This document shows, piece by piece, positions 37,259 to 53,015 of a stretch of 64,000 nt of DNA; the first letter of the stretch is position 1, and every line of letters begins with the position of its first letter. Source of the stretch: Dechloromonas agitata is5 (GTDB lineage: Bacteria; Pseudomonadota; Gammaproteobacteria; Burkholderiales; Rhodocyclaceae); NCBI RefSeq assembly GCF_000519045.1, contig NZ_KI912532.1:2170001-2234000 (forward strand). The letters run 5' to 3'. Under the pieces are notes generated by a model. It saw only the letters and a program-made list of their open reading frames with translations, was not told where the DNA came from and searched no databases. The translations under genes were made by a program, and so were the position numbers.

Positions 37259-38355
37259 GGGACGGGTGGGGTCGAGGTCAGGCCGGTCGGCAGCAGGCGG
37301 CGGATCAGCGGGCTGACGGTGGCGCGGAAGCGCGGGCTATGCAGGCAGACGCCGCCGAGCAGGCCGACTAGGCAGCCGAGGACGGTGTCCCAGAAGCGCG
37401 CTGCGATCAGCGGCGCCGGGCTGGTTTGGCCGAGGGTGGCGGCTTCGACCAGCAAAATGGTCAGCGGTGTGATGAAGATGGCCGCCAGCGCGTAATGGCG
37501 GACAATCAGCATTTCGATGCAGAAGGCCAGCGCGATCATGACCAGCGGGATCGTCCACGCACTGAGGGGCAGGAGCAGCACGCCCCAGGCCAGCAGCAGG
37601 CCGATGGCGGTGCCGACGATGCGGTGGATCTGCTTGGTCCACACGGCGCGCAGAGTCATGCCCTGGAGCACGGCCAGGCAGCTGACCGGCACCCAGTAGG
37701 GCTGGACGAGTTGCAGGGCATGCGCGAGGGCGAGGGCGATGCCGACGAAAAGGCCGATGATCACCGCGTCGAATACGACGAAATCGAAGGTGGGGGCCGG
37801 CAAGGGCGGAATTGGCCGGGGGGGCTGGCGGCGCAGCGTGATCAGGCTGTAGAGGAAGGCGATCAGGCTGGCGAGCAGGCAGCCCATGGTCAGCAGGCCG
37901 ACCTTGAGCGGCACGTCGAGGATGCCGCCCGGGGTGTGGGCACCGATCGAGGCCGCCATGACGAAAAAAAAGCTGCCCGGCGGCGGCATGCAATAGTAGC
38001 GGCTGACCATGGTGACCAGGATGGCTGTTATGGTCAGCGCCGGGATGGTGGCCGGCGGGTAGAGCTGGCTGATCACACCGGCGGCGTAACTGGCGATCAG
38101 CGCAAAGGCGCAGGCGAGCAGCACCACCATGCGGTGGTACATCGGCGTTTCCGGCAGGTAGAGGAAGAGCATGCCGCCCAGCGAGGAGATCAGGCCGTAG
38201 TCGAGATGGCTGAAGGAAGCGCCGACCAGCAGTGGCAGACCGGAGGAGAGCGCGGCGGCAAAGGGCATCGGCCAGCGGCGGTCGCTGCGGTTGAAGCGGG
38301 TCAGGCTGCCCCATTCGGCGCGTAGCCAGCTGATCAGTTGGGCTGCTCCGGCCAC
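37255..38355 (-). CDS. FUSC-family membrane protein embedded in the biotin operon
   Basis: The 366-residue protein starts at a GTG (38355) 11 bp after the bioA stop. It has two hydrophobic blocks of about five helices each, separated by a cytoplasmic Pro-rich loop (PPRPIPPLPAPTF), and WVPVSCLAVLQGMTLRAVWTKQIHRIVGTAIGLLLAWG in pieces, which matches the FUSC/AaeB-type exporter half. Relatives export aromatic acids or are of unknown function. Its 4-nt overlap with bioF implies coupled translation. A transport role for a pathway compound is possible but not shown. Confidence 0.8.
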   Translation of the reverse strand: MAGAAQLISWLRAEWGSLTRFNRSDRRWPMPFAAALSSGLPLLVGASFSHLDYGLISSLGGMLFLYLPETPMYHRMVVLLACAFALIASYAAGVISQLYPPATIPALTITAILVTMVSRYYCMPPPGSFFFVMAASIGAHTPGGILDVPLKVGLLTMGCLLASLIAFLYSLITLRRQPPRPIPPLPAPTFDFVVFDAVIIGLFVGIALALAHALQLVQPYWVPVSCLAVLQGMTLRAVWTKQIHRIVGTAIGLLLAWGVLLLPLSAWTIPLVMIALAFCIEMLIVRHYALAAIFITPLTILLVEAATLGQTSPAPLIAARFWDTVLGCLVGLLGGVCLHSPRFRATVSPLIRRLLPTGLTSTPPVP

Positions 38356-38366
38356 GATGGCGCTTC

Positions 38367-39710
38367 TTACAAGGAGGCCGTCAGGGCGGCGGCGATGGTC
38401 TGGCCGAGCAAGGCGATTTCCTCGTCGCTGACGATGTAGGGCGGCATGACGTAAACCGTGTTGCCGATCGGGCGGATTAGCGCGCCACGATCGAGCGCAG
38501 CGCGGTAGAACTGGCGGGAGAAGTACGGGGCGTCGGTGGCGACGTCGAAGGCGGCGATCATGCCACGCTGGCGCAAGTGCTTGACCTGTGGGTGGTCGGC
38601 GAGTGGCGCGAGGGCGGCGCCGATGGCCTGGGCCTTGGCCCGGTTGGCGGCGATCACGTCGTCCTGTTCGAAAATGTCGAGGGTTGCCAGCGCCGCCCGG
38701 CAGGCCAGCGGGTTGCCGGTATAGCTGTGCGAATGCAGGAAGGCGCGGGCGACCGAATCGTCGAGGAAGGCGGCGTAGATCGTGTCGCTGCACAGCACGA
38801 TGGAGAGCGGCAGGTAGCCGCCCGAAATGCCTTTCGACAGGCACATCAGGTCGGGCCGGATGTCCGCTTGTTCGTGGGCGAAGAAGGTTCCGGTACGGCC
38901 GCAGCCGACGGCGATTTCATCACAGACCAGATGCACTTCGTAGCGGTCGCACAGCTGGCGGGCGAGGCGCAGGTATTCCGGGTCGTACATCGCCATGCCG
39001 GCGGCGCCCTGCACCAGCGGCTCAACGATCAGCGCGGCGGTGCGCTCGCCGTGCTGTTGCAGCCAGTTTTCCAGCCCGGCGGCGGCGCGGCGGGCCACGT
39101 CGGCCGGGGTTTCACCCGCTTCGGCCTGGCGGAAGTCGGGCGAGGGCAGCACGTGCGCCGCGGCGCGGACCAGCGGCGCGTAGGCGTCCTTGAAGATGGC
39201 GACGTCGGTGACGGCCAGCGCGCCGACCGTTTCGCCGTGGTAGCTGCCGGCCAGGCAGAGGAACTCGGATTTCTCCGGGCGGCCGATGTTGCGCCAGTAG
39301 TGGAAGCTCATCTTCAGCGCGATCTCGGTGGCCGAGGCGCCGTCCGAGGCGTAGAAGGCATGGCCGAGCGCGCCGCCGGTCAGGACGGAGAGACGTTCGG
39401 AGAGTTCGACCACCGGCTGGTGCGTGAAGCCGGCGAGCATGACGTGTTCCAGGGTGTCGAGCTGTTCGCGCAGCGCCGCGTTGATGCGCGGGTTGGCATG
39501 GCCGAACAGGTTGGTCCACCACGAACTGATGCCGTCGAGGTAACGGTTGCCGTCGAAATCATGCAGCCAGGCACCTTCGCCGCGGGCGATGGGGACCAGC
39601 GGCAGGTAGGCGGGGGCGCCGGGCCGGGCGTGATGCTGCATCTGCGTGCAGGGGTGCCAGACAGCCGCCTGGCTGCGCGCCAGCCAGTCTTCGTTCGACG
39701 ACGTGCGCAT
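38367..39710 (-). CDS. bioA: Adenosylmethionine-8-amino-7-oxononanoate aminotransferase
   Basis: BioA makes 7,8-diaminopelargonate using SAM as amino donor and PLP. The 447-residue protein has the family start VWHPCTQMQHH, GISSWWTNLFGHANPRIN, the aminotransferase motif LVCDEIAVGCGRTGTFFAHE and the PLP-lysine segment MCLSKGISGGYLPLS. Its ATG overlaps the stop of the DUF2863 gene by 1 nt. It leads the enzymatic part of the biotin operon. Confidence 0.96.
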   Translation of the reverse strand: MRTSSNEDWLARSQAAVWHPCTQMQHHARPGAPAYLPLVPIARGEGAWLHDFDGNRYLDGISSWWTNLFGHANPRINAALREQLDTLEHVMLAGFTHQPVVELSERLSVLTGGALGHAFYASDGASATEIALKMSFHYWRNIGRPEKSEFLCLAGSYHGETVGALAVTDVAIFKDAYAPLVRAAAHVLPSPDFRQAEAGETPADVARRAAAGLENWLQQHGERTAALIVEPLVQGAAGMAMYDPEYLRLARQLCDRYEVHLVCDEIAVGCGRTGTFFAHEQADIRPDLMCLSKGISGGYLPLSIVLCSDTIYAAFLDDSVARAFLHSHSYTGNPLACRAALATLDIFEQDDVIAANRAKAQAIGAALAPLADHPQVKHLRQRGMIAAFDVATDAPYFSRQFYRAALDRGALIRPIGNTVYVMPPYIVSDEEIALLGQTIAAALTASL

Positions 39711-40888
39711 CAGTGCAGGATCTGCGAACCGGCGGCGTTCGGCTGTTCCGGCATCTCGGCATGCACCAGCTCGCCCTCGCGGTTCGGGAAGAGCGGGGCG
39801 CCGCAGTCGTCGCAGAATTCCATCGGGAAATGATGGTCGAGGAAGAGCACTTCCTTGACGCCGGTTTCACGCAGCACGGCCTCGATCTCGCCGGCGGCAT
39901 CGGTCGCCTCGTCCTCGGTGCCGAGCAGCGGCCAGACGATGCCGTGGTAGACCTCTTCGCCACTCTTCGGGCCGAGGCTGACGCGGTATTCCTCCATGCG
40001 GCGGTCGTAGCAGGGGCCGACGACGGCGCGGATATCGGCCGGCATCAGGCCGAGCATGGTTTGCAGGAAGGCGACGGAAGCCTTCAGGGAATAGGGACGC
40101 GACAGGCGGTCGGCGTTGCGGCAGGCAGCGTGGTAGGCATCAGCCAGCAGCGGCTGCCAGGCGCAGCCGGTGAGCAGCGGCTCCAGGCTGGGGCTGCCTT
40201 GCTTGATCCATTCCTTGAGCGCGGTTTCCTTGTTGCCACCATCGGCTTCATTCCAGCGGAACAGCGGCTTGCCGCGCGGCACGGCGATGGTGCCGACCAG
40301 GTAGCGCACGTCGGACAGGAACCGATTGGTTTCCGGCATGGTGCTGGCATCGATGCCCAGGTGCTTGTCGGCCAGGGCGGCTTCGCCGAGTTGCTTGGTC
40401 AGTTGCCAGGTGTCGCAGAAGCTGCGTGGCAGCTGATCGGGGCTGAACAGGAAATCGGCCATCGCCAGGCGGGTGTCGGCGCCGAAAACATGGGCGCCCA
40501 GTTGCACGGCGAGTGCCTGTAAGGTGCTCTTGGGCAGCGAACAGGCGGGGATCGAGAAACGCGACCAGGCCAGGACGGGCGCGGCGAAGAGCTGGATGTC
40601 GAAGATCTGCCCCTGCACCTCGACCTGGTTGCTTTCGGCACGCGATTCGACCATGTCGGCCAGTTCGTCGTGCGCCCGCGGATTGGCTTCGAACAGGCGG
40701 TCGAGGGCGGTGTTGATGTCGTCCTCGGCGCCATGGCGGAGCAGTCCGTCGACGGCATCGGCCAGCTGGCTTTCCCAGAAGCTGTCCTCCAGCTTGCCGC
40801 CGGATTCGGAGAGGCCGGTGGCGAGGCGTTGCAGTTCGGCCGCTTCGCGGGAGAGACGGTCGCGCGAACCAAAGCGGGTGCGTTTCAT
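39710..40888 (-). CDS. DUF2863-type protein, first gene of the biotin operon
   Basis: The 392-residue protein begins MKRTRFGSRDRLSREAAELQ and ends with a metal-binding-like segment FCDDCGAPLFPNREGELVH. It has no signal peptide or membrane helix. From memory this matches the DUF2863 family of betaproteobacteria, whose function is unknown. The stop codon overlaps the bioA start by 1 nt, so the two are translationally coupled. The promoter of the whole operon should lie in the 87-bp gap before yaaA, which is divergent. Confidence 0.75.
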   Translation of the reverse strand: MKRTRFGSRDRLSREAAELQRLATGLSESGGKLEDSFWESQLADAVDGLLRHGAEDDINTALDRLFEANPRAHDELADMVESRAESNQVEVQGQIFDIQLFAAPVLAWSRFSIPACSLPKSTLQALAVQLGAHVFGADTRLAMADFLFSPDQLPRSFCDTWQLTKQLGEAALADKHLGIDASTMPETNRFLSDVRYLVGTIAVPRGKPLFRWNEADGGNKETALKEWIKQGSPSLEPLLTGCAWQPLLADAYHAACRNADRLSRPYSLKASVAFLQTMLGLMPADIRAVVGPCYDRRMEEYRVSLGPKSGEEVYHGIVWPLLGTEDEATDAAGEIEAVLRETGVKEVLFLDHHFPMEFCDDCGAPLFPNREGELVHAEMPEQPNAAGSQILH

Positions 40889-40975
40889 CGATGATCCAGA
40901 AAAACCAAAAAGAGGATTTTACCAGCCGGTAAAATGGCGCACAGCACAAACCTTTGTTTTCACCCGCTTTCGATC

Positions 40976-41749
40976 ATGCTCATCCTGCTCTCGCCCGCCA
41001 AGTCGCTCGACTACACGACGCCGCCCCATGTCGCCACCTGCACGCAGCCGCGCTTCCTGCCTCAGTCGGAAAACCTGATCCGGGCGTTGCGCCGCTTGTC
41101 GCCGGCCGACATCGCGACGCTGATGGATTTGTCCGATCAACTCGCGCTGCTCAATTTCAACCGCTATGCCGACTGGTCGCTGCCCTTCACGCCGGAAAAT
41201 GCCAAGCAGGCAGTACTTGCTTTCGACGGCGATGTTTACGACGGCCTCGACGCCCGCCACCTGAGCGCCGATGACCTCGACTTCGCCCAGCAACACGTGC
41301 GCATCCTCTCCGGCCTCTACGGTCTGCTGCGGCCGCTCGACCTGATGCAACCCTACCGCCTGGAAATGGGCACCAAATTTGCCAATGCGGCGGGCAAGGA
41401 TTTGTACGCCTTCTGGGGCACCACCCTGCTCGACGCGATCAATGCCGAACTCGCCGCCATGCCGCGCCCGGTCGTCGTTAACCTGGCCTCCGAGGAGTAT
41501 TTCAAGGCGGCGGTCGGCCGCAAGATCCAGGGCACGGTGATCCAGCCGGTGTTCGAGGACTGGAAGAACGGCAAGTACAAGATCATCAGTTTCTACGCCA
41601 AGCGGGCGCGCGGCCTGATGACGCGCTACGCGGTGGTCAACCGGCTGAGCGAGCCGGAAGCCCTGCAGAATTTCGCGGTCGATGGCTACGCCTTTGCACC
41701 GGAGGCTTCCGACGCGACGACCTGGGTCTTCCGGCGGCGCGAGGACTAG
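40976..41749 (+). CDS. yaaA: Peroxide stress protein YaaA (UPF0246)
   Basis: The 257-residue protein begins [13 protein letters not shown] and has [29 protein letters not shown] and [17 protein letters not shown], all typical of YaaA. In E. coli the protein limits intracellular iron and DNA damage during peroxide stress. It is expressed divergently from the biotin operon and is convergent with the kinase-protease fusion gene (4-bp overlap at the ends). Confidence 0.95.
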
Positions 41750-44700
41750 TCGAGTGCCTGCAGGACGGCGCAGACGGCATCCATTTCGGCGAGGAGCGGC
41801 GCGACCGTCGCTTCGCTGACCGGCGTGGCCTCTTCCTTGAGGCTCAATTCGATCGTCCGCGCCGTTTCACCCAGTGCATCCATGCCCAGGCTAAGCGCGA
41901 CGCCCTTGATGCTGTGCGCGCTACGCACGGCTTCCGGGCGCTGGCCGGTCTGCACGTTCTGCCGTAGGTCGCGGGCCAGTTCGGCGGCATGCGTGTCGCG
42001 GAACTTGAGTAGCATGCGGCGGTAGAAATCCACCTTGTGGCGGACGCGCGCCAGACCTTCGTCGACGTTGATGCCCGGCAGGTCGGGCAACGGGCGGGCC
42101 GCCGCCGGTTGCGGGCAGGTCGGCGGCATGGCTGGCGGCGGGAGGGGGGCAGGACGTTCGGCCGGCAACAGTTCGGCAATCAGCTGGAGCAGTTTTTCCA
42201 GATTGACCGGCTTGCTGACGTGGGCATTCATGCCGGCCGCCAGGCATTGCTCGCGGTCGCTTTCGAGCACGCCGGCGGTCAGGGCGATGATGGGCAGGCC
42301 GGCGTATTCCGGCATCTCGCGCAGTGTGCGGGTGGCGGTGAAGCCATCCATGACCGGCATCTGGCAATCCATCAGGATCACGTCCGGCTTGCGGGCGCGC
42401 ACCATGGCGATGGCTTCGTCACCGTTGCTGGCCAGCCGGACCTGGATGCCGGCCGTGGCGAACAGTTCGCGCATCAGGTCGCGATTCAGCTCGATGTCGT
42501 CGACGACCAAGATGTCGGCCTCCTTCAGTTGCTGGATGGAGGACAGGTCGGGGGCGTTGACCCCCGCGGCGATTGCGACCGGGTGGTCGAGACCAAGGGC
42601 CTTGCTCAGTACGGCGTGCATGCGGCGCAGGCTGGTCGGCTTGAGCAGAACGGCATCGGCCGCCTGGTGATCGGCCTGTGCCGTACTGGTCGCGATCAAC
42701 GAGGAGAGCAGAATCAGTTTCGGCTGCCCGGGCTGCGCCTCCCGGCGAATTTCCTTGATGATGTCCAGCCCGTTTGGGGCCGGCATCTGCCAGTCGAGCA
42801 GGGCGGCGAGCGGAGCGCTGCCTGGGCGGCGCAGGGCGGCCAGTGCCGTGTCGCCGCTGGCGTGGGCATCGACCGTGAAACCGAGTTGCCGGCACAGATT
42901 GCCCAGCGCCCGCCGCGCGGCCGGATTGTCGTCGGCAATCAGGATGCTGCGCCCGGCGTAGGCCGCCAGTTGCTGGCGTAGTTCGGTGGCGGGCAGCGCG
43001 GCGGGCGGGCAGCCGAAGCGAACGGTAAAGTGGAAGGTGCTGCCGAGCCCCTGCACGCTCTCCAGCCACATGCGCCCACCCATCAATTCGACCAGGCGCT
43101 TGGAAATCGCCAAGCCGAGGCCGGAGCCACCGTAGCGCCGGGTGGTGGATGAATCGGCCTGGCTGAAGGCCGAGAACAGGGCTGTCTGCTGTTCCGGTGC
43201 GATGCCGATGCCTTCGTCCTTTATCCAGAAATGGAGCTCGGCCTGCTCACCGCTCGTGCCGGCCAGTCTGCAACCCAGCTGCAGGCTGCCCTGGGGCGAG
43301 AACTTGACGGCATTGCCGAGCAGGTTGATCAAGATCTGCTTGAGGCGCAGCGGGTCACCGATGAAGCTGCGCGTCGCTTCCGGCGCCAGATCGATGCACA
43401 GTTCCAGACCCTTTTCCTCGATACGGCCGATCAGCAGGTCGTTGATCTCGTCGAGCAGGCCTGGCAGTTCGAAGCTCAACTGCTCGATGCTCATCTTGCC
43501 GGCTTCGATGCGCGAGAAATCGAGGATGTCGTCGATGATGCCGAGCAGGTGGTCGGCCGCCCGGCGGATCTTGCCGATGTGCTGCTGCTGGACCGGATTG
43601 AGCGGCGTCAGCAGGCAGAGATCGGACAGGCCGAGGATGGCGTTGAGCGGCGTGCGCACCTCGTGCGACATGTTCGACAGGAATTCGCTCTTGGCGCGGC
43701 TGGCGGCCTCTGCCTGCAACATGGCGAGGCGCAGGTCGTGCGTCCGCTCATCGACCATGCGGGCCAGGTTGTCGCGGTGGTCACGCAATTCCTCGGCGGT
43801 TTCGTGCAATAGGCGTTCGTTGTCGCGCAAGGCCTGCTCGCGCGATTTGAGGGTGGCGATGTTGGCGGCGACAACGACGGCTCCCTCCAGCTTGCCCGCC
43901 TGGCTGTGCAGGAGACTGGCGTGGACGAGGTAGGGAATGTGGCCGTCCATCCCCTGCGGCTGGGTGGACCCGGCCCGGCGGAAATACAGCTCGGCGGAGA
44001 ATCGGCCGCCGGCCGCCCGGATCGCATTGAGCAACCAGGGCGCCTTCGCCACCGGCAGCAGGCTGCGCAACTGCTGGAGACTCGGCTCGGCCAGGCAATC
44101 CTCGAAGTAAGCGCCGATCAGGGTGGCCGGCGTATAGCCCAATTCCTGTTCGAGCAGGGGATTGATCCGCGTCACCCGACCATCCGGCCCGAGCATGACG
44201 AAGATTTCTGCCATGGTGCCGATGGCACGTTCCAGCGCGCCGTGCAGGCGCGTCAGTTCGTCCGAACGCAGGCGCAGTTCATCCTGCTGTCGCTCCTGCT
44301 CGGCGATGAGCAGTTCCATCGTTTCGGTGCTCTGGATCAGTTCACCTTCCAGCGCCTGGTTTGCCTCGCGCAGCATGTCGAGTTCGTTGGCCAGTTCGGC
44401 CGCGATGTCTTCGCTCGCCGGCAGAAAGCGCTGCCGGATCAGGCCGACCGTTTCGCCGACGGCGGCGGCGACCTCGACCGACAGGCCGGGGACGAAGGTG
44501 GCGACGGGGCCGATTTCGGCGGCGATGACGTCGACCCGCGGCAGCGGATTCAGCGTTTCGCGCGCGGCCTCCAGCAGATAGCCCACCCCGGCGCCGTGCC
44601 CGCCGTGGTGATCCTCGACCGGCACGTCGCGCGGCCCGAGCAGGTGGACCGTGCCGGGGCGGGGGCCGGCCATCGCATCGACAACGATCACCTGGCGCAC

Positions 44701-44871
44701 GTTCTCGAAATAGTGCAGCGCATCGAGGCCGCGGTTGCCGCAATCGATCACCTCCGCCGTTCCGGCGGCGAGCAGCCGGCGCAGGGCCAGGGCGACGGCC
44801 GGGCCAAAGCCGTCATCCCCGTGCAGGGGATTGCCGAAGCAGAGGATGCGCAGGCGCGAACGATCAGACAT
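41746..44871 (-). CDS. Fusion: hydrogenase maturation endopeptidase, PAS, histidine kinase, REC, REC, Hpt
   Basis: The 1041-residue protein has, in order, a HyaD/HoxW-type endopeptidase (1-150; [13 protein letters not shown] with D19/D20, [12 protein letters not shown] with D65, HHGGHGAG with H88-H92), a coiled coil (152-215), a PAS domain (about 216-335), a second coiled coil, a dimerisation domain with H403 ([14 protein letters not shown]), an ATPase domain ([32 protein letters not shown]), a receiver with D693, a second receiver with D835 ([12 protein letters not shown]), and a C-terminal Hpt with H986. All key residues are intact. The gene starts 8 nt inside the hydrogenase large-subunit gene. 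I infer that the protease part removes the C-terminal tail of that subunit and that the kinase reports hydrogenase state. The output regulator is not in the window. Confidence 0.92.
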
Positions 44872-46381
44872 GGAAGCGTGTTTTATCGTGGCGGCCGATG
44901 AAATGCACGGTGCACACCAGGCAGGGGTCGTGCGAACGCACGATGTGGCCGATTTCGAGCGGGTTGGCCGGGTCCGGCACGGGCAGGCCGATGATGCTCT
45001 GTTCCCAATGGCCATGGCGCCCGGCGCTGTCACGCGGCGAGGCATTCCAGGCGGTCGGTGTGACGATCTGGTACTTCTCGATCACCCCATTCCTGATCCG
45101 CAGCCAGTGGCCGAGCGCGCCACGCGCCGCCTCGACCAGCCCGTAGCTTTCGCCATCCGGCCAGACATCGAGGCCGGGGTCGAGGTAGTGCGGCTCGCTG
45201 AGGCAGGCTTTAATCGACTGCAGGGTCTCGGCCATGGCCTGGATCAGCCAGCCGGCGCGCCGCAGGCGGGCAAACTGGCGCAGCCAGGTGTTGTCGCCTT
45301 CGCGCGCCAGCAGGTCGGTGATCAGCGGGTCGCCAGCGATGCGCAACTCGGCCAGCGGGCCGGTCTGCACCACCCGGTCGCCATAGCGCGGCGCCTTGGC
45401 CCAGGTGTAGCGGTCGGTGCCCGGCAGGTGGTCGGGGATGGTTTCGCCCTGCCACGGGTGGCGGCCCCCCTCGTAGGGCAGGAACCAGCTGTGGCGGACG
45501 TGTTCGTTGATCTGCGCCTGGTCGAGCGCCTCGACTGCTTGCGTATCGCCGTTGAAGAAGCCGGCCGGCAGGGCGTGGCCGCTGCCGTCGGGGCGGATGA
45601 CCGAGCCATAGCTGAGGAGGTGCGGCGTGCCGCGCCCGAGCAGGTGCAAGCCGATATCGCGGCTGAAACGGTTGAACAGGCCTAGGCCGCTGCCGGCACG
45701 GGCGGCGTCGGCCGCCTGCCAGCGGAACAGCGCATCGCCGCTGTCGAGGGCCATCCATTCATCGAGGCTGCCGCCGATGACGGCCTGCTCGAACCAGCCC
45801 CGAACAGCGGCCAGGATGTCGCGGCTGTCCATCACCCGCCGGCTGTTGGCCGGCTGCGAAATGCCGCCGGGCAGCATGTAGGTCGAGTGCGGCCACTGGC
45901 CGCCGAACAGCGCGACGATACCGAGCAGGTCCCGCGTCGCCTTCAGCGTGCCGCGCGCCACGCTGCCCTTGAGTGGCAGGAAGGCGGCGTTCAAGGCGCC
46001 AGCCAGCGGTTGGCCGGCATAGCGGGCGTTGCAGAAATCCGGCGTGAAGAAGAGGAATGTCTGGCGCAGGTCGCTCTGCAGGGTTTCCGCCATCAGGCAC
46101 AGGTTGCGGACATGGACGGCATGGGCCGGCGGTGTCAGGTTGGCGATCTGTTCCAGCGCCAGCGTCGCGGCGTAGAGGTGGGCCGTGCCGCAAATGCCGC
46201 AGACACGCGGCGTGATGACCAGCGCGTCGCGCGGTGCGCGGCCGATCATGATCTGCTCGAAACCCCGGTAGAGCGTGCCGATGCAGCGCGCATCGACGAC
46301 GATACCGTCTTCCAGGTCGACCTGGAATTCCAGATCGCCTTCGACGCGGTTGAGGTCGATATCGACGGTGACGCGGCTCAT
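44864..46381 (-). CDS. [NiFe]-hydrogenase large subunit, sensory type
   Basis: The 505-residue protein carries both nickel-binding motifs: RVCGICGTAH near the N-terminus and DPCLVCTVH near the C-terminus. Twelve residues follow the final His ([12 protein letters not shown]), so maturation by an endopeptidase is needed. Overall features (short N-terminus MSRVTVDIDLNRVEGDLEF, TPRVCGICGTAHLYAATLALE) point to group 2 hydrogenases, the group of HupUV/HoxBC sensors and cyanobacterial uptake enzymes. It lies 3 bp after the small-subunit gene and overlaps the protease-kinase fusion gene by 8 nt. No cytochrome b, hyp or electron-transfer genes are near, favouring sensing over energy conservation. Confidence 0.94.
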   Translation of the reverse strand: MSRVTVDIDLNRVEGDLEFQVDLEDGIVVDARCIGTLYRGFEQIMIGRAPRDALVITPRVCGICGTAHLYAATLALEQIANLTPPAHAVHVRNLCLMAETLQSDLRQTFLFFTPDFCNARYAGQPLAGALNAAFLPLKGSVARGTLKATRDLLGIVALFGGQWPHSTYMLPGGISQPANSRRVMDSRDILAAVRGWFEQAVIGGSLDEWMALDSGDALFRWQAADAARAGSGLGLFNRFSRDIGLHLLGRGTPHLLSYGSVIRPDGSGHALPAGFFNGDTQAVEALDQAQINEHVRHSWFLPYEGGRHPWQGETIPDHLPGTDRYTWAKAPRYGDRVVQTGPLAELRIAGDPLITDLLAREGDNTWLRQFARLRRAGWLIQAMAETLQSIKACLSEPHYLDPGLDVWPDGESYGLVEAARGALGHWLRIRNGVIEKYQIVTPTAWNASPRDSAGRHGHWEQSIIGLPVPDPANPLEIGHIVRSHDPCLVCTVHFIGRHDKTRFHV

Positions 46382-46384
46382 CGT

Positions 46385-47320
46385 TCAGGGCTCCATTTCC
46401 CGGTTGACCACGCGTTCCGGCGCAGCGGCACGGGCCAGGTTCTTGTAGGCCATGTACTTGGCGCGGGCCACGCCGAGTGGCAGGAATTTGGGTACGGTGC
46501 CAATCTTGGGCGTGACGAACAGGTCACGTGCTGGCGGGAAATCGGCCGAAGTGCAGCCAAAGCAGGGCACACCGGCGCGGGTCTTACTGTTATGGCCGTT
46601 CCACAACTCGGTATTGCATGGCGCGACGGTCTGCGGGCCGCGGCAGCCCAGGTTGAAGAACAGACAGCCTCGCCCGCCGAGCACGTTGTCCTCGATGTCG
46701 TACTCGTGATACTCGTTGCGCGTGCAGCCTTGGTGCACCAGGGTCGAAAAGAAGGCGGCCGGCCGGTTCAGCGCATCGAGCGACAAGGTTTCGCCTTCGG
46801 CGAGCATGGCCAGGACCTTGGTCATCGTGTTGGGGTGGGCCGGGCAGCCGGCCACGTTGATCACCGGCTGGCCGTTGCGGCTCCGCCAGTCGCTGCCGAG
46901 CAGGCCGCCCGGCTGATCCTTCATGAATTGCAGGCCGGTGCAGTCGGTCGGATTGGGGCCGGCGGCATGCACGCCGCCGTATGCGGCGCAGGTGCCCATG
47001 GCGACGACATGGGTGGCGAGGGGTGCCAGTTGGCGGACGATGTCGAACTTGGCGCGCCCCTTCCAGGTGTCGTACTGACCGCTGCCGTTCGGACCGGTGA
47101 GCAGGCTGCCCTCGATGCACAGGATATCGAGCGGCTCGCGGCCGCTGGTCACGCCATCGAGCACCTCGCCGAAACTCCGGTCGGCCGTCAGCGAGGGATG
47201 CCACAGGAAATTCAGGCCGTACTGGTCAATCAGGTTCTCGATGCTCGGCCGGTCGGCGCAGAGCAAGGCCATCGACTCGCCGCTGCAGGCGCCGGTTTGC
47301 ATCCAGACGATATTGGCCAT
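46385..47320 (-). CDS. [NiFe]-hydrogenase small subunit, cytoplasmic, group 2-like
   Basis: The 311-residue protein starts MANIVWMQTGACSGESM and has no Tat signal peptide, so the enzyme is cytoplasmic. Cluster ligands visible are Cys12, Cys in MGTCAAYGG and Cys in VAGCPAHPN for the proximal site, His/Cys in LVHQGC, GGRGC and NLGC for the distal site, and Cys in APCNTE and GVPCFGC for the medial site. The usual fourth proximal Cys is Glu15 (CSGE). The motif WHPSLTADRS also occurs in group 2 enzymes. The ATG at 47320 is preferred over one at 47368, because it gives the family N-terminus. A strong sigma-70-like promoter lies about 70 bp upstream. Confidence 0.93.
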   Translation of the reverse strand: MANIVWMQTGACSGESMALLCADRPSIENLIDQYGLNFLWHPSLTADRSFGEVLDGVTSGREPLDILCIEGSLLTGPNGSGQYDTWKGRAKFDIVRQLAPLATHVVAMGTCAAYGGVHAAGPNPTDCTGLQFMKDQPGGLLGSDWRSRNGQPVINVAGCPAHPNTMTKVLAMLAEGETLSLDALNRPAAFFSTLVHQGCTRNEYHEYDIEDNVLGGRGCLFFNLGCRGPQTVAPCNTELWNGHNSKTRAGVPCFGCTSADFPPARDLFVTPKIGTVPKFLPLGVARAKYMAYKNLARAAAPERVVNREMEP

Positions 47321-47391
47321 GGCCGCTCTCCGAGTTTCTTGATGGCTGCCAATCGGGCATGTCACCACAATTTGCGCTGTTATTTCGTAAA

Positions 47392-47419
47392 ATTATAGTT
47401 AAATTTATTATTTTTACAA
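47392..47419 (-). promoter_or_regulatory. Sigma-70-like promoter of the hydrogenase-sensor operon
   Basis: On the minus strand TTGTAA (47419-47414) is followed after 16 nt by a perfect TATAAT (47397-47392). Transcription would start near 47385, about 65 nt before the small-subunit ATG. The -35 element overlaps the stop codon of the upstream PIN gene. The AT-rich stretch stands out from the surrounding GC-rich sequence. No sigma-54 element of the kind seen before many hup operons was found. Confidence 0.65.
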
Positions 47420-47893
47420 CAAATGTGTCAATTTTTCCTGCGGGCTGCACGGGATGTCAGGTCCGGTTGCCATTGCCCCCGCAATCAGGCTCGCCGCAGC
47501 GGCCGGCTTGACGATTTGAAAGCCCAGTTTGGTCCTTCCGCGCAACTTGAGCAATGCCTTGTCCTTGCTGACCAGCAGGTCGGCCTGGCAGCGGGCGGAG
47601 AGTTCAAGGAATTTCTGGTCGTCGCGATCCTTGCAGCGCGGCAGGGGCGGCGAATCGCCTTCCGGATGCATCTGGACCAGACCGCTGTAGCGTGCGTAGC
47701 GGTCGGCGATCATCGCCGGCGTCAGCTTCAACTGCGGGTAGGTCAACACGCGCTGCAGTTCGTCCAGTGTGCGCCGGTCGGCGAAACACGCGATGCGGCC
47801 GGCTTCCAGCGCCGCCATGATCGGTACCGCATCGGTATTGGCCCAATGGAAGAGGTCGAGAACGACATTGGTGTCGAGAACGAGGCGCAGCAT
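47414..47893 (-). CDS. PIN-domain putative ribonuclease (toxin-like, orphan)
   Basis: The 159-residue protein begins MLRLVLDTNVVLDLFHW with the first PIN Asp, then has TLDELQRVLTYPQL, CKDRDDQKFLELS and ADLLVSKDKALLKL with the other acidic residues, typical of the PIN_3-type 'putative toxin component' family. PIN domains cleave RNA. No antitoxin gene lies directly upstream: the next gene is the divergent DusC-like gene 47 bp away. It is therefore an orphan or a housekeeping PIN nuclease rather than a proven toxin. Confidence 0.85.
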   Translation of the reverse strand: MLRLVLDTNVVLDLFHWANTDAVPIMAALEAGRIACFADRRTLDELQRVLTYPQLKLTPAMIADRYARYSGLVQMHPEGDSPPLPRCKDRDDQKFLELSARCQADLLVSKDKALLKLRGRTKLGFQIVKPAAAASLIAGAMATGPDIPCSPQEKLTHLL

Positions 47894-47940
47894 GGAGCGA
47901 TTATAATGCGCGCCTCTTCCCCCACCCCGTGAAATCCCCC

Positions 47941-48912
47941 ATGTCCCGCATCCTGCTCGCTCCGATGGAAGGCCTCGCCGATCCGCTGATGCGGCAGGTG
48001 CTGACAGCGATCGGCGGCTACGACTGGGGCATCTGCGAATTCGTCCGGGTTACCGAGAGCGTCTTGCCCAACCGCACGTTCCTGCGGACCTGTCCGGAAT
48101 TGCACAACGACAGCCGAACCGATGCCGGTACGCCGATGCGCGTCCAGTTGTTGGGTTCCGACCCGCATTTCATGGCCGCCAACGCCCGGCGCCTGGTCCG
48201 TCACCGGCCGGCCGGGGTGGATATCAACTTCGGCTGCCCGGCACCGACGGTCTTCCGCCATCGCGGCGGGTCGGCCCTGCTCGGCGAGCCGGAACTGCTG
48301 CACGCCATCGTCAGCGCCGTGCGCGCCGAGGTGCCGGCCGACATTCCTTTCACCGCCAAGATGCGCCTCGGCATTGCCGACAGCAGCCTGGCGGTCGATT
48401 GCGCCCAGGCCATCGCGGCGGGTGGAGTCGATGAACTGATCGTCCATGGCCGTACCAAGGTCGACGGCTATAAGCCACCAGCGCGTTGGGCGCAGATCGA
48501 CCGGGTGCGGGCTGCGGTCAGTATCCCGATCATCGCCAACGGCGAGGTATGGACGGTGGCTGATTTCCGCCAGTGCCAGCTGGAGTCGGGGTGCGCCGAC
48601 GTCATGCTTGGCCGCGGTGCGCTGGCCGACCCATTGCTGCCGCGCAAGCTGCGTGGCGAGGCGACTGGCGGCTGGGCTGAATTGCTGCCCTCGGTGGCAA
48701 CCTACTGGCGCGGCGTGCGCGAGCGGGTGATGCCGGTGCATGCCGGCGGTCGCCTGAAGCAATGGCTGATGTTGCTGCGCCGCCATTACCCGGAGGCCGA
48801 GGCGCTCTACCAGCAATTGCGCCCGGTCAAGGCTGCCGAGGATATCGACGCCATGCTGGTCGCTGCCGGCGTGCTCGACAGTCTTCCCGAGCGCCTGCTT
48901 CTCGCCGCCTGA
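47941..48912 (+). CDS. dusC: tRNA-dihydrouridine synthase, DusC-like
   Basis: The 323-residue flavoprotein reduces a specific uridine of tRNA to dihydrouridine. It has the FMN-binding opening ILLAPMEGLADPLMR, the catalytic-Cys motif INFGCPAPTVFRHRGGSALL, FTAKMRLGIAD, the ELIVHGRTKVDGY segment and IIANGEVWTVADF. The PTVxxxxGGxxLL pattern and length fit DusC (position 16) rather than DusA or DusB. Start at 47941; the upstream GTG at 47929 is an alternative. The next gene overlaps the stop by 1 nt. Confidence 0.88.
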   Translation: MSRILLAPMEGLADPLMRQVLTAIGGYDWGICEFVRVTESVLPNRTFLRTCPELHNDSRTDAGTPMRVQLLGSDPHFMAANARRLVRHRPAGVDINFGCPAPTVFRHRGGSALLGEPELLHAIVSAVRAEVPADIPFTAKMRLGIADSSLAVDCAQAIAAGGVDELIVHGRTKVDGYKPPARWAQIDRVRAAVSIPIIANGEVWTVADFRQCQLESGCADVMLGRGALADPLLPRKLRGEATGGWAELLPSVATYWRGVRERVMPVHAGGRLKQWLMLLRRHYPEAEALYQQLRPVKAAEDIDAMLVAAGVLDSLPERLLLAA

Positions 48913-49580
48913 TGGAAGGCAATTCCCGCTTCATCCGCAGCGCCCAGGGGGAGCCGCACGCCGATCTGCCGGAACTGGTCCGGCGCCATTTCGCCCACCC
49001 GTTCCGCAAACCGATTCTCGATTACAACCGGCAAGCCTACGCCGCAGCGCTGGCCGCTCGCGCCGGCTGGAACCCCAAAGCGCCGCTCATTCTCGACGCC
49101 GGTTGCGGCGTCGGCTGGAGCACGTTGCGCCTTGCCGAGGACTATCCCGATCATTTCGTGATCGGCGTCGATCAGTCGAGCGACCGCATCGAGCGCGGCA
49201 AGCCGCTCGCCCTGCCGGGCAACGCGGTGTTCGCCCGGGCCGACCTGGTCGATTTCTGGCGTCTGCTGCAGGCTGACGGTGTCCGCCTGGCCCGCCATTA
49301 CCTGCTCTATCCGAACCCGTGGCCGAAGATCGGTCACCTGGCCCGGCGCTGGCACGGTCACGCCATCTTCCCCTCCCTGCTGGCGCTTGGTGGCGTGCTC
49401 GAATGCCGCAGCAACTGGTCGGTGTATATCGATGAAATGGCCCTCGCCATCGCGCTCGCCACCGGCCGGCCGGCGGTCGGGGAAGCATGGCAGCCGTCCG
49501 GCGAGCCACTGACCCCGTTCGAGAAGAAGTACCTCGCTTCCGGCCACGCCCTGCATCGCGTCGTGGTCGATCTGGGCTGA
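48912..49580 (+). CDS. TrmB-like SAM-dependent methyltransferase
   Basis: The 222-residue protein has the SAM motif LILDAGCGVGWSTLRLAEDYPDHFVIGVDQS in pieces and the TrmB-like segment YLLYPNPWPKIGHLARRWHGHAIFPSLLAL, in which the NPWPK motif is characteristic of tRNA (guanine-N7) methyltransferases. It lacks some N-terminal features of housekeeping TrmB, so it may be a paralogue. It overlaps the DusC-like gene by 1 nt, and co-expression of two tRNA-modifying enzymes is plausible. Confidence 0.82.
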   Translation: MEGNSRFIRSAQGEPHADLPELVRRHFAHPFRKPILDYNRQAYAAALAARAGWNPKAPLILDAGCGVGWSTLRLAEDYPDHFVIGVDQSSDRIERGKPLALPGNAVFARADLVDFWRLLQADGVRLARHYLLYPNPWPKIGHLARRWHGHAIFPSLLALGGVLECRSNWSVYIDEMALAIALATGRPAVGEAWQPSGEPLTPFEKKYLASGHALHRVVVDLG

Positions 49581-49590
49581 GACGAGGGGC

Positions 49591-49923
49591 ATGTCGGAGG
49601 AAACCACGGTGTCGCCTTGCCAGAGTTGCGGCGCCTGTTGCGCCAGTTTTCGCGTCGACTTCCATCCGGCTGAACTGGCCGGAGGGCGCTTTGCCTGGGG
49701 GCAGGGCGTTCCGCACTCCCTGAGCGTGCCGGTAACCGCCTGCATTGTCCGCATGGCCGGCACCGATCGCGCGGCGCCGCGTTGCGTGGCACTCGATGGC
49801 GAGATCGGTCTGGCTGTGCGCTGCACCATTTATGCCGAGCGCCCATCGCCCTGCCGCGAGTTCGATACCGAACACAGTGCCTGCAACCGGGCACGGCAAC
49901 GCCACGGCCTGCCTCCGCTATAA
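49591..49923 (+). CDS. YkgJ-family Cys-cluster protein
   Basis: The 110-residue protein has the zinc- or iron-sulfur-binding pattern of the family: PCQSCGACCASFRVDFHP at the N-terminus, CVALDGEIGLAVRCTIYAERPSPCREF in the C-terminal half seen as RCTIYAERPSPCREFD. Function is unknown for the family. It starts 10 bp after the methyltransferase gene and is the last gene of that cluster. Confidence 0.88.
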   Translation: MSEETTVSPCQSCGACCASFRVDFHPAELAGGRFAWGQGVPHSLSVPVTACIVRMAGTDRAAPRCVALDGEIGLAVRCTIYAERPSPCREFDTEHSACNRARQRHGLPPL

Positions 49924-49930
49924 GCGATAT

Positions 49931-49965
49931 TTATCCCCGTTCTGGTCGGACAAGGCTGTGGATAA
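49931..49965. repeat. First copy of the DnaA-box module
   Basis: TTATCCCCG at 49931-49939 and TGTGGATAA at 49957-49965; the latter is the exact reverse complement of the DnaA consensus TTATCCACA. Confidence 0.8.
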
Positions 49966-50149
49966 GCTCGGGATGAACGCCGTAAGCCCCTGATGCACAT
50001 AGTCAAACCGCGGGTTGCTCAAATTTTGGGCGGGTGGCTGCTTTGGCTTGCCGGACAAGGCTTTTCGGGTTTTGTCAAATGCCCCGCGAGGGGGGAAGGG
50101 CTGCGGCCCGGGATTTGCCAGTGGTGTTCAGTTGTTGAATAAACGCTAT

Positions 50150-50184
50150 TTATCCCCGTTCGGACGGGGTAAGTCTGTGGATAA
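50150..50184. repeat. Second copy of the DnaA-box module
   Basis: TTATCCCCG at 50150-50158 and TGTGGATAA at 50176-50184, with the same 26-bp spacing as the first copy. Confidence 0.8.
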
Positions 50185-50417
50185 GTTCTGGGTAGATTCT
50201 GCAACTCACTGTCCGGCAAGGGTTTTGGGTGTCTTGCTTAAATTTTGAGCAAAACTTGCTGCGCTGCACATCAATTCATGGCAAAACCCGCAAGATAAGC
50301 TATCATATATAAGACTTGCGGGCCGGCCTCGGGACGCTACCCGCCGAACCATTCGGCCGCCGCGATTGTCGTAAAATATTCGTTTCCCAGAGCAACCCTT
50401 TACGAAAGGAAGTCGCC

Positions 50418-53015
50418 GTGCTTGAAGCCTATCGCGCCCACGTTGCAGAGCGTGCAGCCCTCGGTATCCCGCCGCTGCCCCTGTCCAAGCAACAGACCAC
50501 CGAACTGGTGGCCCTGCTGAAGAATCCTCCCGCCGGCGAAGAAGCCGCTCTGGTCGAATTGATCACCTATCGCGTGCCGGCAGGCGTCGATGACGCCGCC
50601 AAGGTCAAGGCCGAGTTCCTGGCCAAGGTCGCCAAGGGTGAAGAGTCCTGCGCCCTGATCTCCAAGGAAAAGGCCACCGAACTGCTCGGCACCATGCTCG
50701 GCGGTTACAACGTCAAGCCGCTGATCGACCTGCTGGCCTGCCCGACCTGTGGCGCCGTCGCCGCCGAAGGCCTGAAGAAGACCCTGCTGGTGTTCGATTA
50801 CTTCCACGACGTCGCCGAGCTGGCCAAGGCCGGCAACGCCAACGCCAAGGCCGTCATGCAGTCCTGGGCCGACGCCGAGTGGTTCACCTCGCGTCCGGAA
50901 GTCCCGGCCTCGCAAAAGCTGACCGTGTTCAAGGTCACCGGCGAAACCAACACCGACGACCTGTCGCCGGCCCCGGATGCCTGGTCGCGTCCTGACATCC
51001 CGCTGCACGCCCTGGCCATGCTGAAGAACCCGCGTCCGGGTATCGAAGCCGACGAGCCGGGTGCGCGCGGCCCGATCAAGCAACTGGAAAAGCTGGCTGC
51101 CAAGGGCAACCTGATCGCCTACGTCGGTGATGTGGTCGGTACCGGTTCTTCCCGCAAGTCCGCCACCAACTCGGTGCTGTGGTTCACCGGCGAAGACATC
51201 CCGTACGTCCCGAACAAGCGCTTCGGTGGCGTCTGCCTGGGCTCCAAGATCGCGCCGATCTTCTTCAACACGATGGAAGATGCTGGCGCGCTGCCGATCG
51301 AAATCGACGCCGGCCAGATGGACATGGGCGATGAGATCGAACTGAAGGTCGATGGCGCCACCGGCAAGGTTACCGCTGTCAAGAATGGTGCCGTGATCGC
51401 CGAATCGCAGCTGAAGACGCTCGTCATTCTCGACGAAGTCCGCGCTGGCGGCCGTATCCCGCTGATCATCGGTCGCGGCCTGACCGCCAAGGCGCGTGAA
51501 GCCCTCGGCCTGCCGGCCTCCACCCTGTTCCGTCTGCCGCAGCAGCCGAACGATCCGGGCACCGGCTACTCGCTGGCCCAGAAGATGGTCGGCCGCGCCT
51601 GTGGCCTGCCGGAAGGCAAGGGCATCCTGCCGGGTACCTACTGCGAACCGAAGATGACCACCGTCGGTTCCCAGGACACCACCGGCCCGATGACCCGCGA
51701 CGAACTGAAGGATCTGGCCTGCCTCGGCTTCTCCGCCGACATGGTCATGCAGTCCTTCTGCCACACCGCCGCTTATCCGAAGCTGGTCGACGTCAAGATG
51801 CACCGCGAACTGCCGTCCTTCATCAGCACCCGTGGTGGCGTTGCCCTGCGTCCGGGCGACGGCGTCATCCACTCCTGGCTGAACCGCCTGCTGTTGCCGG
51901 ATACCGTCGGTACCGGTGGCGACTCGCACACCCGTTTCCCGATCGGCATCTCCTTCCCGGCCGGTTCCGGTCTGGTTGCCTTCGCTGCCGCCACCGGCGT
52001 CATGCCGCTGGACATGCCGGAATCCGTGCTGGTTCGCTTCAAGGGCAAGATGCAGGACGGCATCACCCTGCGCGACCTGGTTAACGCCATTCCGCTGTGG
52101 GCCATCAAGCAGGGTCTGCTGACCGTCGAGAAGAAGGGCAAGAAGAACGTCTTCTCCGGCCGCATCCTCGAAATCGAAGGTCTGCCGGATCTCAAGGTCG
52201 AACAGGCCTTCGAACTGTCCGACGCTGCTGCCGAACGTTCCGCTGCTGCTTGCGCCATCGCCCTGAACAAGGAACCGATCGTCGAGTACATGCGTTCGAA
52301 CATCACCCTGATGAAGTGGATGATCGCTGAAGGCTACCAGGATGCCCGCACCCTGAAGCGTCGTATCGCTGCCATGGAAGAGTGGATTGCCAAGGGCGAA
52401 CTGCTCAAGGCCGACGCCAACGCCCAGTACGCTGCCGTGATCGAAATCGACCTGGCCGAGATCACCGAGCCGATCGTTGCTTGCCCGAATGATCCGGACG
52501 ACGTCAAGGTCCTGTCCGAAGTGGCCGGCGACCAGATCGATGAAGTCTTCATCGGTTCCTGCATGACCAACATCGGTCACTTCCGCGCGGCCGGCAAGGT
52601 GCTGGACGGCAAGTCCGACATCCCGACCCGCCTGTGGATCGCTCCGCCGACCAAGATGGATGCCATGGTGCTGAACGAGGAAGGCTACTACAGCGTTCTC
52701 GGCAAGGCCGGTGCCCGTATGGAAATGCCGGGCTGCTCGCTGTGCATGGGTAACCAGGCCCAGATCCGCAAGGGTTCCACCGCGATGTCGACCTCGACCC
52801 GCAACTTCCCGAACCGCCTGGGTATCGACACCCGCGTCTACCTCGGCTCCGCCGAGCTGGCTGCGATGTGCGCCCTGCTCGGCAAGATTCCGACCAAGGA
52901 AGAGTACATGCAGTACATCCAGGTCGTGAATGCCAAGGCGGCCGATATCTACCGCTACATGAACTTCGACCAGATTCCGGCTTTCGTTGAAGTGGCTGAA
53001 ACGGTCACCATGTAA
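50418..53015 (+). CDS. acnB: Aconitate hydratase B
   Basis: AcnB interconverts citrate and isocitrate in the TCA cycle with a 4Fe-4S cluster. The 865-residue length equals that of E. coli AcnB. The start is the GTG at 50418 ([17 protein letters not shown], matching the known N-terminus) with AAAGGA upstream; the frame is open to 50316. HEAT-like N-terminal domain (1-160), swivelling domain with [16 protein letters not shown], and cluster-binding part with [35 protein letters not shown] and [13 protein letters not shown] (cluster Cys) are all present. Codon use is strongly biased (GCC, CTG, GTC), as in a highly expressed gene. Single-gene unit with a strong terminator. Confidence 0.97.

Follow-up and report, generated by a model that had tools for sequence, protein, structure and literature searches.

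In HydDB, the [NiFe]-hydrogenases of group 2b are labelled "histidine kinase-linked" and those of group 2c "diguanylate cyclase-linked (putative)" (PMC5037454). According to a 2025 review, the H2-sensing hydrogenases of groups 2b and 2d lack a cleaved peptide (PMC12134894). The contact between HoxBC and HoxJ is presumed, with its exact mechanism described as open in another review (PMC6978683), and Methylobacter-type enzymes have been assigned to group 2c (PMC4853749, PMC12810054). Here we analyzed a 64,000-nucleotide stretch of the genome of Dechloromonas agitata is5 (contig NZ_KI912532.1, positions 2,170,001 to 2,234,000; hereafter "the window"), in which a HycI-type hydrogenase maturation protease and a hybrid histidine kinase are encoded as one protein behind the two subunits of a [NiFe]-hydrogenase. 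Judged by sequence, this system is a fused, kinase-linked, derived branch of the group 2c lineage and a new twist on a known type of H2 sensor. No description of a fused protease and kinase turned up in the literature covered, which was judged mostly by titles and the beginnings of abstracts and included few subscription papers.

The window large subunit was 60.4% identical to that of Methylobacter tundripaludum (L062), and both stood in one tree. By this kinship, as distinct from an assignment by the HydDB classifier, the window hydrogenase can be placed in the group 2c lineage. The sequence SHDPCLVCTVH was present in 78 of 82 large subunits, the window's included; the L2 motif of group 2c is quoted as SFDxCLVCTVH, and the Thiomargarita motif in the same source has SHD (PMC4853749). 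The diguanylate cyclase of the 2c label is replaced in the window by a histidine kinase, while 36 of 62 unfused relatives had GGDEF. A preliminary description of this DNA had mentioned a group 2c linked to histidine kinases. This swapped the HydDB labels (PMC5037454), but some members of the 2c lineage are indeed linked to kinases, as seen here. Set against group 2b, whose tail-less large subunits end at DPCxxCxxH, the window large subunit has 12 extra residues. Its partner shares the coil-PAS profile with the HoxJ of the same genome, yet is a hybrid kinase with receivers, an Hpt domain and a protease in front.

Gene organization and occurrence of the fusion

The three genes follow each other on the minus strand, as the preliminary description had stated and as the open reading frames (ORFs) and Pfam matches confirmed. 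The small-subunit gene (46385..47320; Pfam Oxidored_q6 and NiFe_hyd_SSU_C) was read from the ATG of "MANIVW", whereas the longest ORF starts from a GTG at 47368. The small subunit begins MANIVWMQTGACSGE, no Tat-type leader was seen in it by eye, and it is taken as cytosolic. The large-subunit gene (44864..46381; Pfam NiFeSe_Hases) encodes 505 amino acids with the nickel-site motifs RVCGIC and DPCLVCTVH. The third gene (41746..44871), read from the ATG of "MSDRSRLR" within a longest frame that begins further upstream, encodes 1041 amino acids comprising a HycI-type protease, a coil-PAS segment, a histidine kinase, two receivers and an Hpt domain. Its start overlaps the large-subunit stop by the 8 nt noted earlier (ATGTCTGA, 44864..44871, minus strand). 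All 14 fused loci from the scan described next have an identical overlap (RTGYCTGA), the sequence being ATGTCTGA or GTGYCTGA when the window is included.

A genome collection was scanned, on the basis of a large-subunit alignment, with two short peptide patterns, and the best 80 of 179 confirmed places were kept. In 14 of these 80 loci, all from other genomes, the gene after the large subunit was the same fusion, a share that gives no prevalence because the ranking is biased toward close relatives. Among 199 sampled genomes of the family, the protease domain was matched at E<=1e-10 in 16. A frame of >1000 amino acids with a protease match occurred in two of the 199, the D. agitata genome itself (one contig of 3.63 Mb) and G385, a one-contig genome of the same genus with the same fusion. 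The linkage of a protease-kinase fusion to a hydrogenase of H2-sensor type, as given in the preliminary description, was borne out. A frame split by an assembly error between protease and kinase, against which the preliminary description had cautioned, was ruled out by the same loci. The PIN-domain-like and dus-like neighbouring genes (named by eye) are also kept in G385.

The 16 fused rows formed one clade (support 100/100) when a maximum-likelihood tree was built from the large subunits; its members are Azonexaceae-type betaproteobacteria and, among the Chromatiaceae, Thiorhodococcus and Imhoffiella. No member of this clade in our set has been split again (16 of 16 still fused). The nearest named large subunit was from a Dechloromonas metagenome-assembled genome (85%). 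The fusion is genuine and inherited, with a single origin on this tree.

Outside the lineage, HycI was found in 78 of 398 genomes of a phylum sample, and a match in a frame of >700 amino acids was found in that sample only in the D. agitata genome. Eight other matches lay in frames of >500 amino acids, four of which were inspected by eye. Three (L173:832-2532, L174:663-2399 and L175:983-2587) combined HycI with a HypF/Kae1-like carbamoyltransferase domain, and the fourth was an upstream extension of a stand-alone gene. In a class sample, 51 of 274 genomes had a match, with two other frames of >500 amino acids (G084 and G087), of which that in G087 seems to be an upstream extension.

Protease domain and large-subunit tail

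The protease domain (residues 1-150; 44422..44871) scored 36.8 bits against Pfam HycI, with a cut-off of 23, and the 15 other fused copies scored 41.8 to 61.4 bits. In a search of the D. agitata genome, the fusion scored 41 bits and HyaD 111.8. The metal ligands D20, D65 and H92, which the preliminary description had called intact, are indeed so in the window and in 15 of 15 fused copies, in an alignment that included the HyaD of D. agitata. They correspond to the metal triad of HybD, Glu/Asp16, Asp62 and His93. Both Asp residues were present in 65 of 65 unfused proteases and the His in 63, the two gapped rows probably being truncated sequences (L087 and L088). Across 58 aligned domains, fused and free, G13, N14, H17, D19, D20, L30, D65 and H92 were invariant. 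An AlphaFold2 (AF2) model of the domain had a mean predicted local distance difference test score (pLDDT) of 90.3, and its best Foldseek matches in PDB were the HycI/HybD structures 5zby, 5ttx, 1cfz and 2e85. Family score, modelled fold, triad and the adjacent tailed large subunit place the domain in the HycI/HybD type, with catalysis predicted. A degenerate protease was considered and rejected in view of the triad and of the selection and evolutionary rate described below.

The large subunit extends 12 residues beyond DPCLVCTVH (44867..44902 on the minus strand, by alignment), presumably the cleavage product. This tail is 12 amino acids long in 15 of 15 fused loci, and 12-16 amino acids follow DxCLxCxVH in 82 of 82 large subunits, while the group 2b HoxC of D. 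agitata has no tail and ends at ...VCTVH. The genome encodes two HycI proteins and two tailed hydrogenases. Because the triad is intact, the fold is that of the family, the tail is present and two HycI proteins face two tailed hydrogenases, the protease domain is expected to trim the large-subunit tail. A further PF00374 match in the genome, at 1940037, is a putative NuoD by look.

Sensor module and phosphorelay

Pfam detected HycI, HisKA, HATPase_c, two Response_reg stretches and Hpt in the fusion protein. By Pfam and alignment, the kinase core spans residues 390-620 (43012..43704, with H403), the first receiver residues 645-775 (42547..42939, D693), the second receiver residues 785-900 (42172..42519, D835) and the Hpt domain residues 950-1041 (41749..42024, H986), all on the minus strand like the segments before them. 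The four phosphorelay residues named in the preliminary description were all found, and the protein has the H-box His, ATPase domain, receiver Asp and Hpt His of a hybrid histidine kinase with Hpt. Its domain order also agrees with that description, the PAS part being supported by PAS_4 in a fused relative (L054, E=7e-4), by predicted secondary structure and by a profile in common with other sensors. In the fused copies from Chromatiaceae there is a single receiver and Hpt is absent, as shown by Pfam for L054 and by alignment for L055 and L056.

Between protease and kinase lie a coil (residues 157-219, with LREANQALE at 167) and a PAS-like domain (residues 222-340), together at 43852..44403, supported by profile and predicted secondary structure and common to the unfused sensors and HoxJ. 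The coil-PAS profile scored 106 bits on the HoxJ of D. agitata, while two kinases that we took as HoxJ/HupT types, in L045 and L044, reached 86 and 74 bits. Leaving aside an 87-bit fragment in L083, which is the front piece of a split sensor from the set, the best of the remaining ORFs in the pool scored 31.8 bits. The presumed docking part thus looks like that of an established H2 sensor. The loose coil pattern LRxANxALE was considered as a lineage-wide mark of docking and rejected as not general: it occurred in 15 of 15 fused proteins and only 27 of 62 unfused sensors. It was found in 0 of 526 other control frames, seven apparent control matches being longer frames of fused genes.

Elsewhere in the D. 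agitata genome (G000:C1:1143722-1168436), an uptake hydrogenase cluster contains HyaD, HypX-like, HoxA-like, HoxBC and HoxJ genes (named by eye). The cell may run two different H2 sensor systems.

Unfused relatives

Of the 66 other loci, 64 had an unfused HycI-type gene after the large subunit, as did L040; in the two exceptions, L076 and L117, the contig ends just past the large subunit. The sensor gene behind the free protease could be read in 62 loci. Its output was a histidine kinase in 23 and GGDEF in 36, and three sensors were broken or truncated (L067, L098 and L101). The GGDEF sensors also have EAL, except L104 at a contig end. Pfam searches of ten representatives, one of them fused, agreed with these labels; in L122, HATPase_c passed and HisKA stayed under its cut-off. 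The window PAS segment directly matched 61 of the 62 unfused sensors (all but L113). The coil-PAS profile found 62 of 62, a figure that is not independent as the profile was built from the same sensors. In 24 of the 62, the sensor frame begins in the stop region of the protease gene (offset -3, a 4-nt overlap).

On the tree, three outputs required three changes, with 8 rows unlabelled. In a Roseateles locus (L111:10071-12713), the sensor is a hybrid histidine kinase while the large subunit lies within the GGDEF-EAL clade; by its sequence, this is an independent swap of output.

A Rieske-like CxH...CxxH stretch lies near the frame start, ahead of coil-PAS, in 27 of the 62 unfused sensors. Examples of this putative [2Fe-2S] stretch, in L062:9992-12616, L073:9990-12080 and L122:10001-12625, occur with histidine kinase or GGDEF-EAL output. 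Of five such sensors scanned, four were above the Pfam Rieske cut-off and L074 was below it; the two fused proteins scanned had no such stretch. On the tree, the label changed six times, at least five of them by well-supported branches. The stretch could carry electrons from the hydrogenase directly into the sensor, and its presence in many sensors suggests an electron-based signal. In the literature covered, no paper was found that unites Rieske, diguanylate cyclase, PAS domain and hydrogenase.

Selection and evolutionary rates

Ratios of nonsynonymous to synonymous substitution (dN/dS, NG86) were estimated for seven segments in five pairs of fused genes. They were 0.16-0.54 for the protease, 0.06-0.26 for the coil, 0.12-0.41 for PAS, 0.10-0.29 for the kinase core, 0.26-0.69 for the first receiver, 0.07-0.28 for the second receiver and 0.12-0.50 for Hpt. 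Of the seven segments, the first receiver had the largest dN in every one of the five pairs. The protease domain is constrained. The ratio of protease to large-subunit distance was 1.92 in fused (14 rows) and 1.81 in unfused systems (58 rows); by this measure, fused and free proteases evolve at about the same rate. The partial correlation of protease and large subunit given the sensor was 0.53 (fused) and 0.55 (unfused), as against weak values of 0.12 (fused) and 0.25 (unfused) for protease and sensor given the large subunit. Shared descent inflates all of these correlations, and no significance figure is attached to them. In the fused systems, protease divergence goes with that of the large subunit and not with that of the sensor.

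Other features of the hydrogenase subunits

At residue 15 of the window small subunit, the position of the second Cys of the proximal cluster (Cys14 in the HoxB of D. agitata) is occupied by Glu. The same position is Asp in 69 of 81 small subunits and Glu in 12, and Huc (7uur) has Asn. The proximal iron-sulfur cluster of the lineage is probably unusual. In the gas channel of the large subunit, the position of Phe110 in the HoxC of D. agitata is Phe in 68 of 81, and the Ile position is Val in 55 of 81. We take Phe and Ile at these two positions to be the narrowed-channel signature of O2-tolerant regulatory hydrogenases, so that Phe alone is half of the signature.

Interpretation

On balance, we lean toward the reading that the locus encodes a group 2c-lineage H2 sensor in which the sensor kinase has taken up a dedicated maturation protease as its N-terminal domain; the protease would mature its own hydrogenase and be tethered by the fusion. 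The small, large and fusion proteins would be produced from an apparent operon in which the genes for the large subunit and the fusion overlap. Hyp proteins would insert the NiFe site, and the protease domain would then cut the 12-residue tail. By homology with the presumed docking of HoxBC on HoxJ, the mature hydrogenase may dock on coil-PAS. H2 turnover would then alter autophosphorylation at H403, and the phosphoryl group would pass via the receivers to H986 and on to a response regulator. The fusion would mainly guarantee one maturase per kinase, with a fixed stoichiometry and the maturase held near the docking site by a short flexible linker.

Several observations weigh against this reading. 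In the domain model, residues 89-92, which include the His ligand, have low confidence and leave the geometry of H92 unsettled. In four of five pairs, the protease has a higher dN/dS than the kinase core and is the less constrained of the two. No Pfam PAS model matched the window fusion protein at E<=0.001, the model of the full-length fusion had a predicted template modelling score (pTM) of 0.43, and no cognate response regulator was recognized by eye in the ORF list from 38000 to 51000. A genome with the fused domain as its sole HycI, which would be a strong pointer to what the domain does, was sought among the 15 other fused genomes and none was found, each having at least one more; maturation by a second protease is therefore formally possible. 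Nothing was found to bear out the caution in the preliminary description that the protease might be inactive or another enzyme mature the hydrogenase: the triad is conserved and the protease is predicted to be active. Of the 32 non-fused HycI matches, 26 lie <=3 kb from another large-subunit match and 3 more within ~5 kb (checked by hand); the remaining 3 have no other large-subunit match near them on the contig. In Salmonella, HyaD partly substitutes for HydD, their large subunits sharing 67% (PMC5299533), as against 31% for the two tailed large subunits of D. agitata.

The preliminary description had gone further and proposed a possible coupling of maturation or H2 turnover to the kinase by way of the protease. 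No positive evidence for this came to light, and we regard it as not very likely that the protease is also in the signal path, bound to the large subunit before or after cutting while the kinase reads nickel loading, maturation or H2 turnover. Such coupling is conceivable because maturation proteases can form stable complexes with the large subunit (PMC5299533). The covalent fusion has been kept from Azonexaceae to Chromatiaceae, and the fusion model places the protease directly N-terminal to the signalling helix. On the other hand, the sensor is also present in unfused relatives, where the protease is free (direct match in 61 of 62), protease distances follow the large subunit and not the sensor, and the protease-coil junction (linker residues 152-160) is of low model confidence and probably flexible. 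A specific form of this proposal, in which the protease clamps the large subunit and keeps the kinase off or on as long as no nickel-loaded, trimmed hydrogenase has been installed, so that the finished hydrogenase would be read besides H2, is in our estimate unlikely.

An improbable alternative is a near-neutral fusion, that is, read-through of adjacent genes fixed once and inherited with the sensor working unchanged. It would fit the single origin on the tree, the hardly differing protease/large-subunit rate ratio and the 4-nt overlap of protease and sensor in 24 of 62 unfused loci, from which a small change could fuse the genes; yet 16 of 16 clade members are unsplit although their downstream parts varied, down to one receiver and no Hpt in Chromatiaceae. 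The existence of the fusion itself and the gap between 41 and 111.8 bits could also be read as signs of a catalytically dead protease that merely docks the large subunit, which is very improbable given the invariance of G13, N14, H17, D19, D20, D65 and H92 in 58 domains, a tail retained in 82 of 82 large subunits and the scores of the 15 other fused copies, all above the cut-off. An artefact of frame or assembly joining two genes is hardly conceivable: nothing was found in its favour, and the fusion recurs in 14 of 80 loci and in the one-contig G385.

These results indicate that an enzyme of cofactor maturation can be combined with a signal transducer in a single protein, an arrangement retained within one lineage that spans betaproteobacteria and Chromatiaceae. 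Two questions become accessible to experiment: whether such proteases have a role once the hydrogenase tail has been cut, and how the sensing of H2 is relayed to a kinase. The 2c lineage has both histidine-kinase and c-di-GMP-type outputs, each behind a HoxJ-like coil-PAS.

Comparison with known systems

The window system resembles the group 2c lineage in the operon order small subunit, large subunit, protease and sensor, in a related coil-PAS and in its large subunit, 60% identical to that of M. tundripaludum. In contrast to group 2c as labelled in HydDB, it has a hybrid histidine kinase as output, not GGDEF-EAL, and its protease is fused to that kinase. With the HoxBC/HupUV-HoxJ/HupT systems of group 2b, it shares a homologous coil-PAS and, probably, the use of a hydrogenase as H2 sensor for a kinase, but its large subunit is tailed, and HoxJ is a separate, simpler kinase.

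The protease is like HycI, HybD and HyaD in its fold, its metal triad and the position of its gene next to that of the large subunit. To our knowledge those proteases are all stand-alone, whereas the window protease is a domain of a kinase. A covalent fusion of a HycI-type protease is also seen in the HycI-HypF/Kae1-like proteins of other proteobacteria, but there, by eye, the partner is a maturation-type domain and not a signal transducer.

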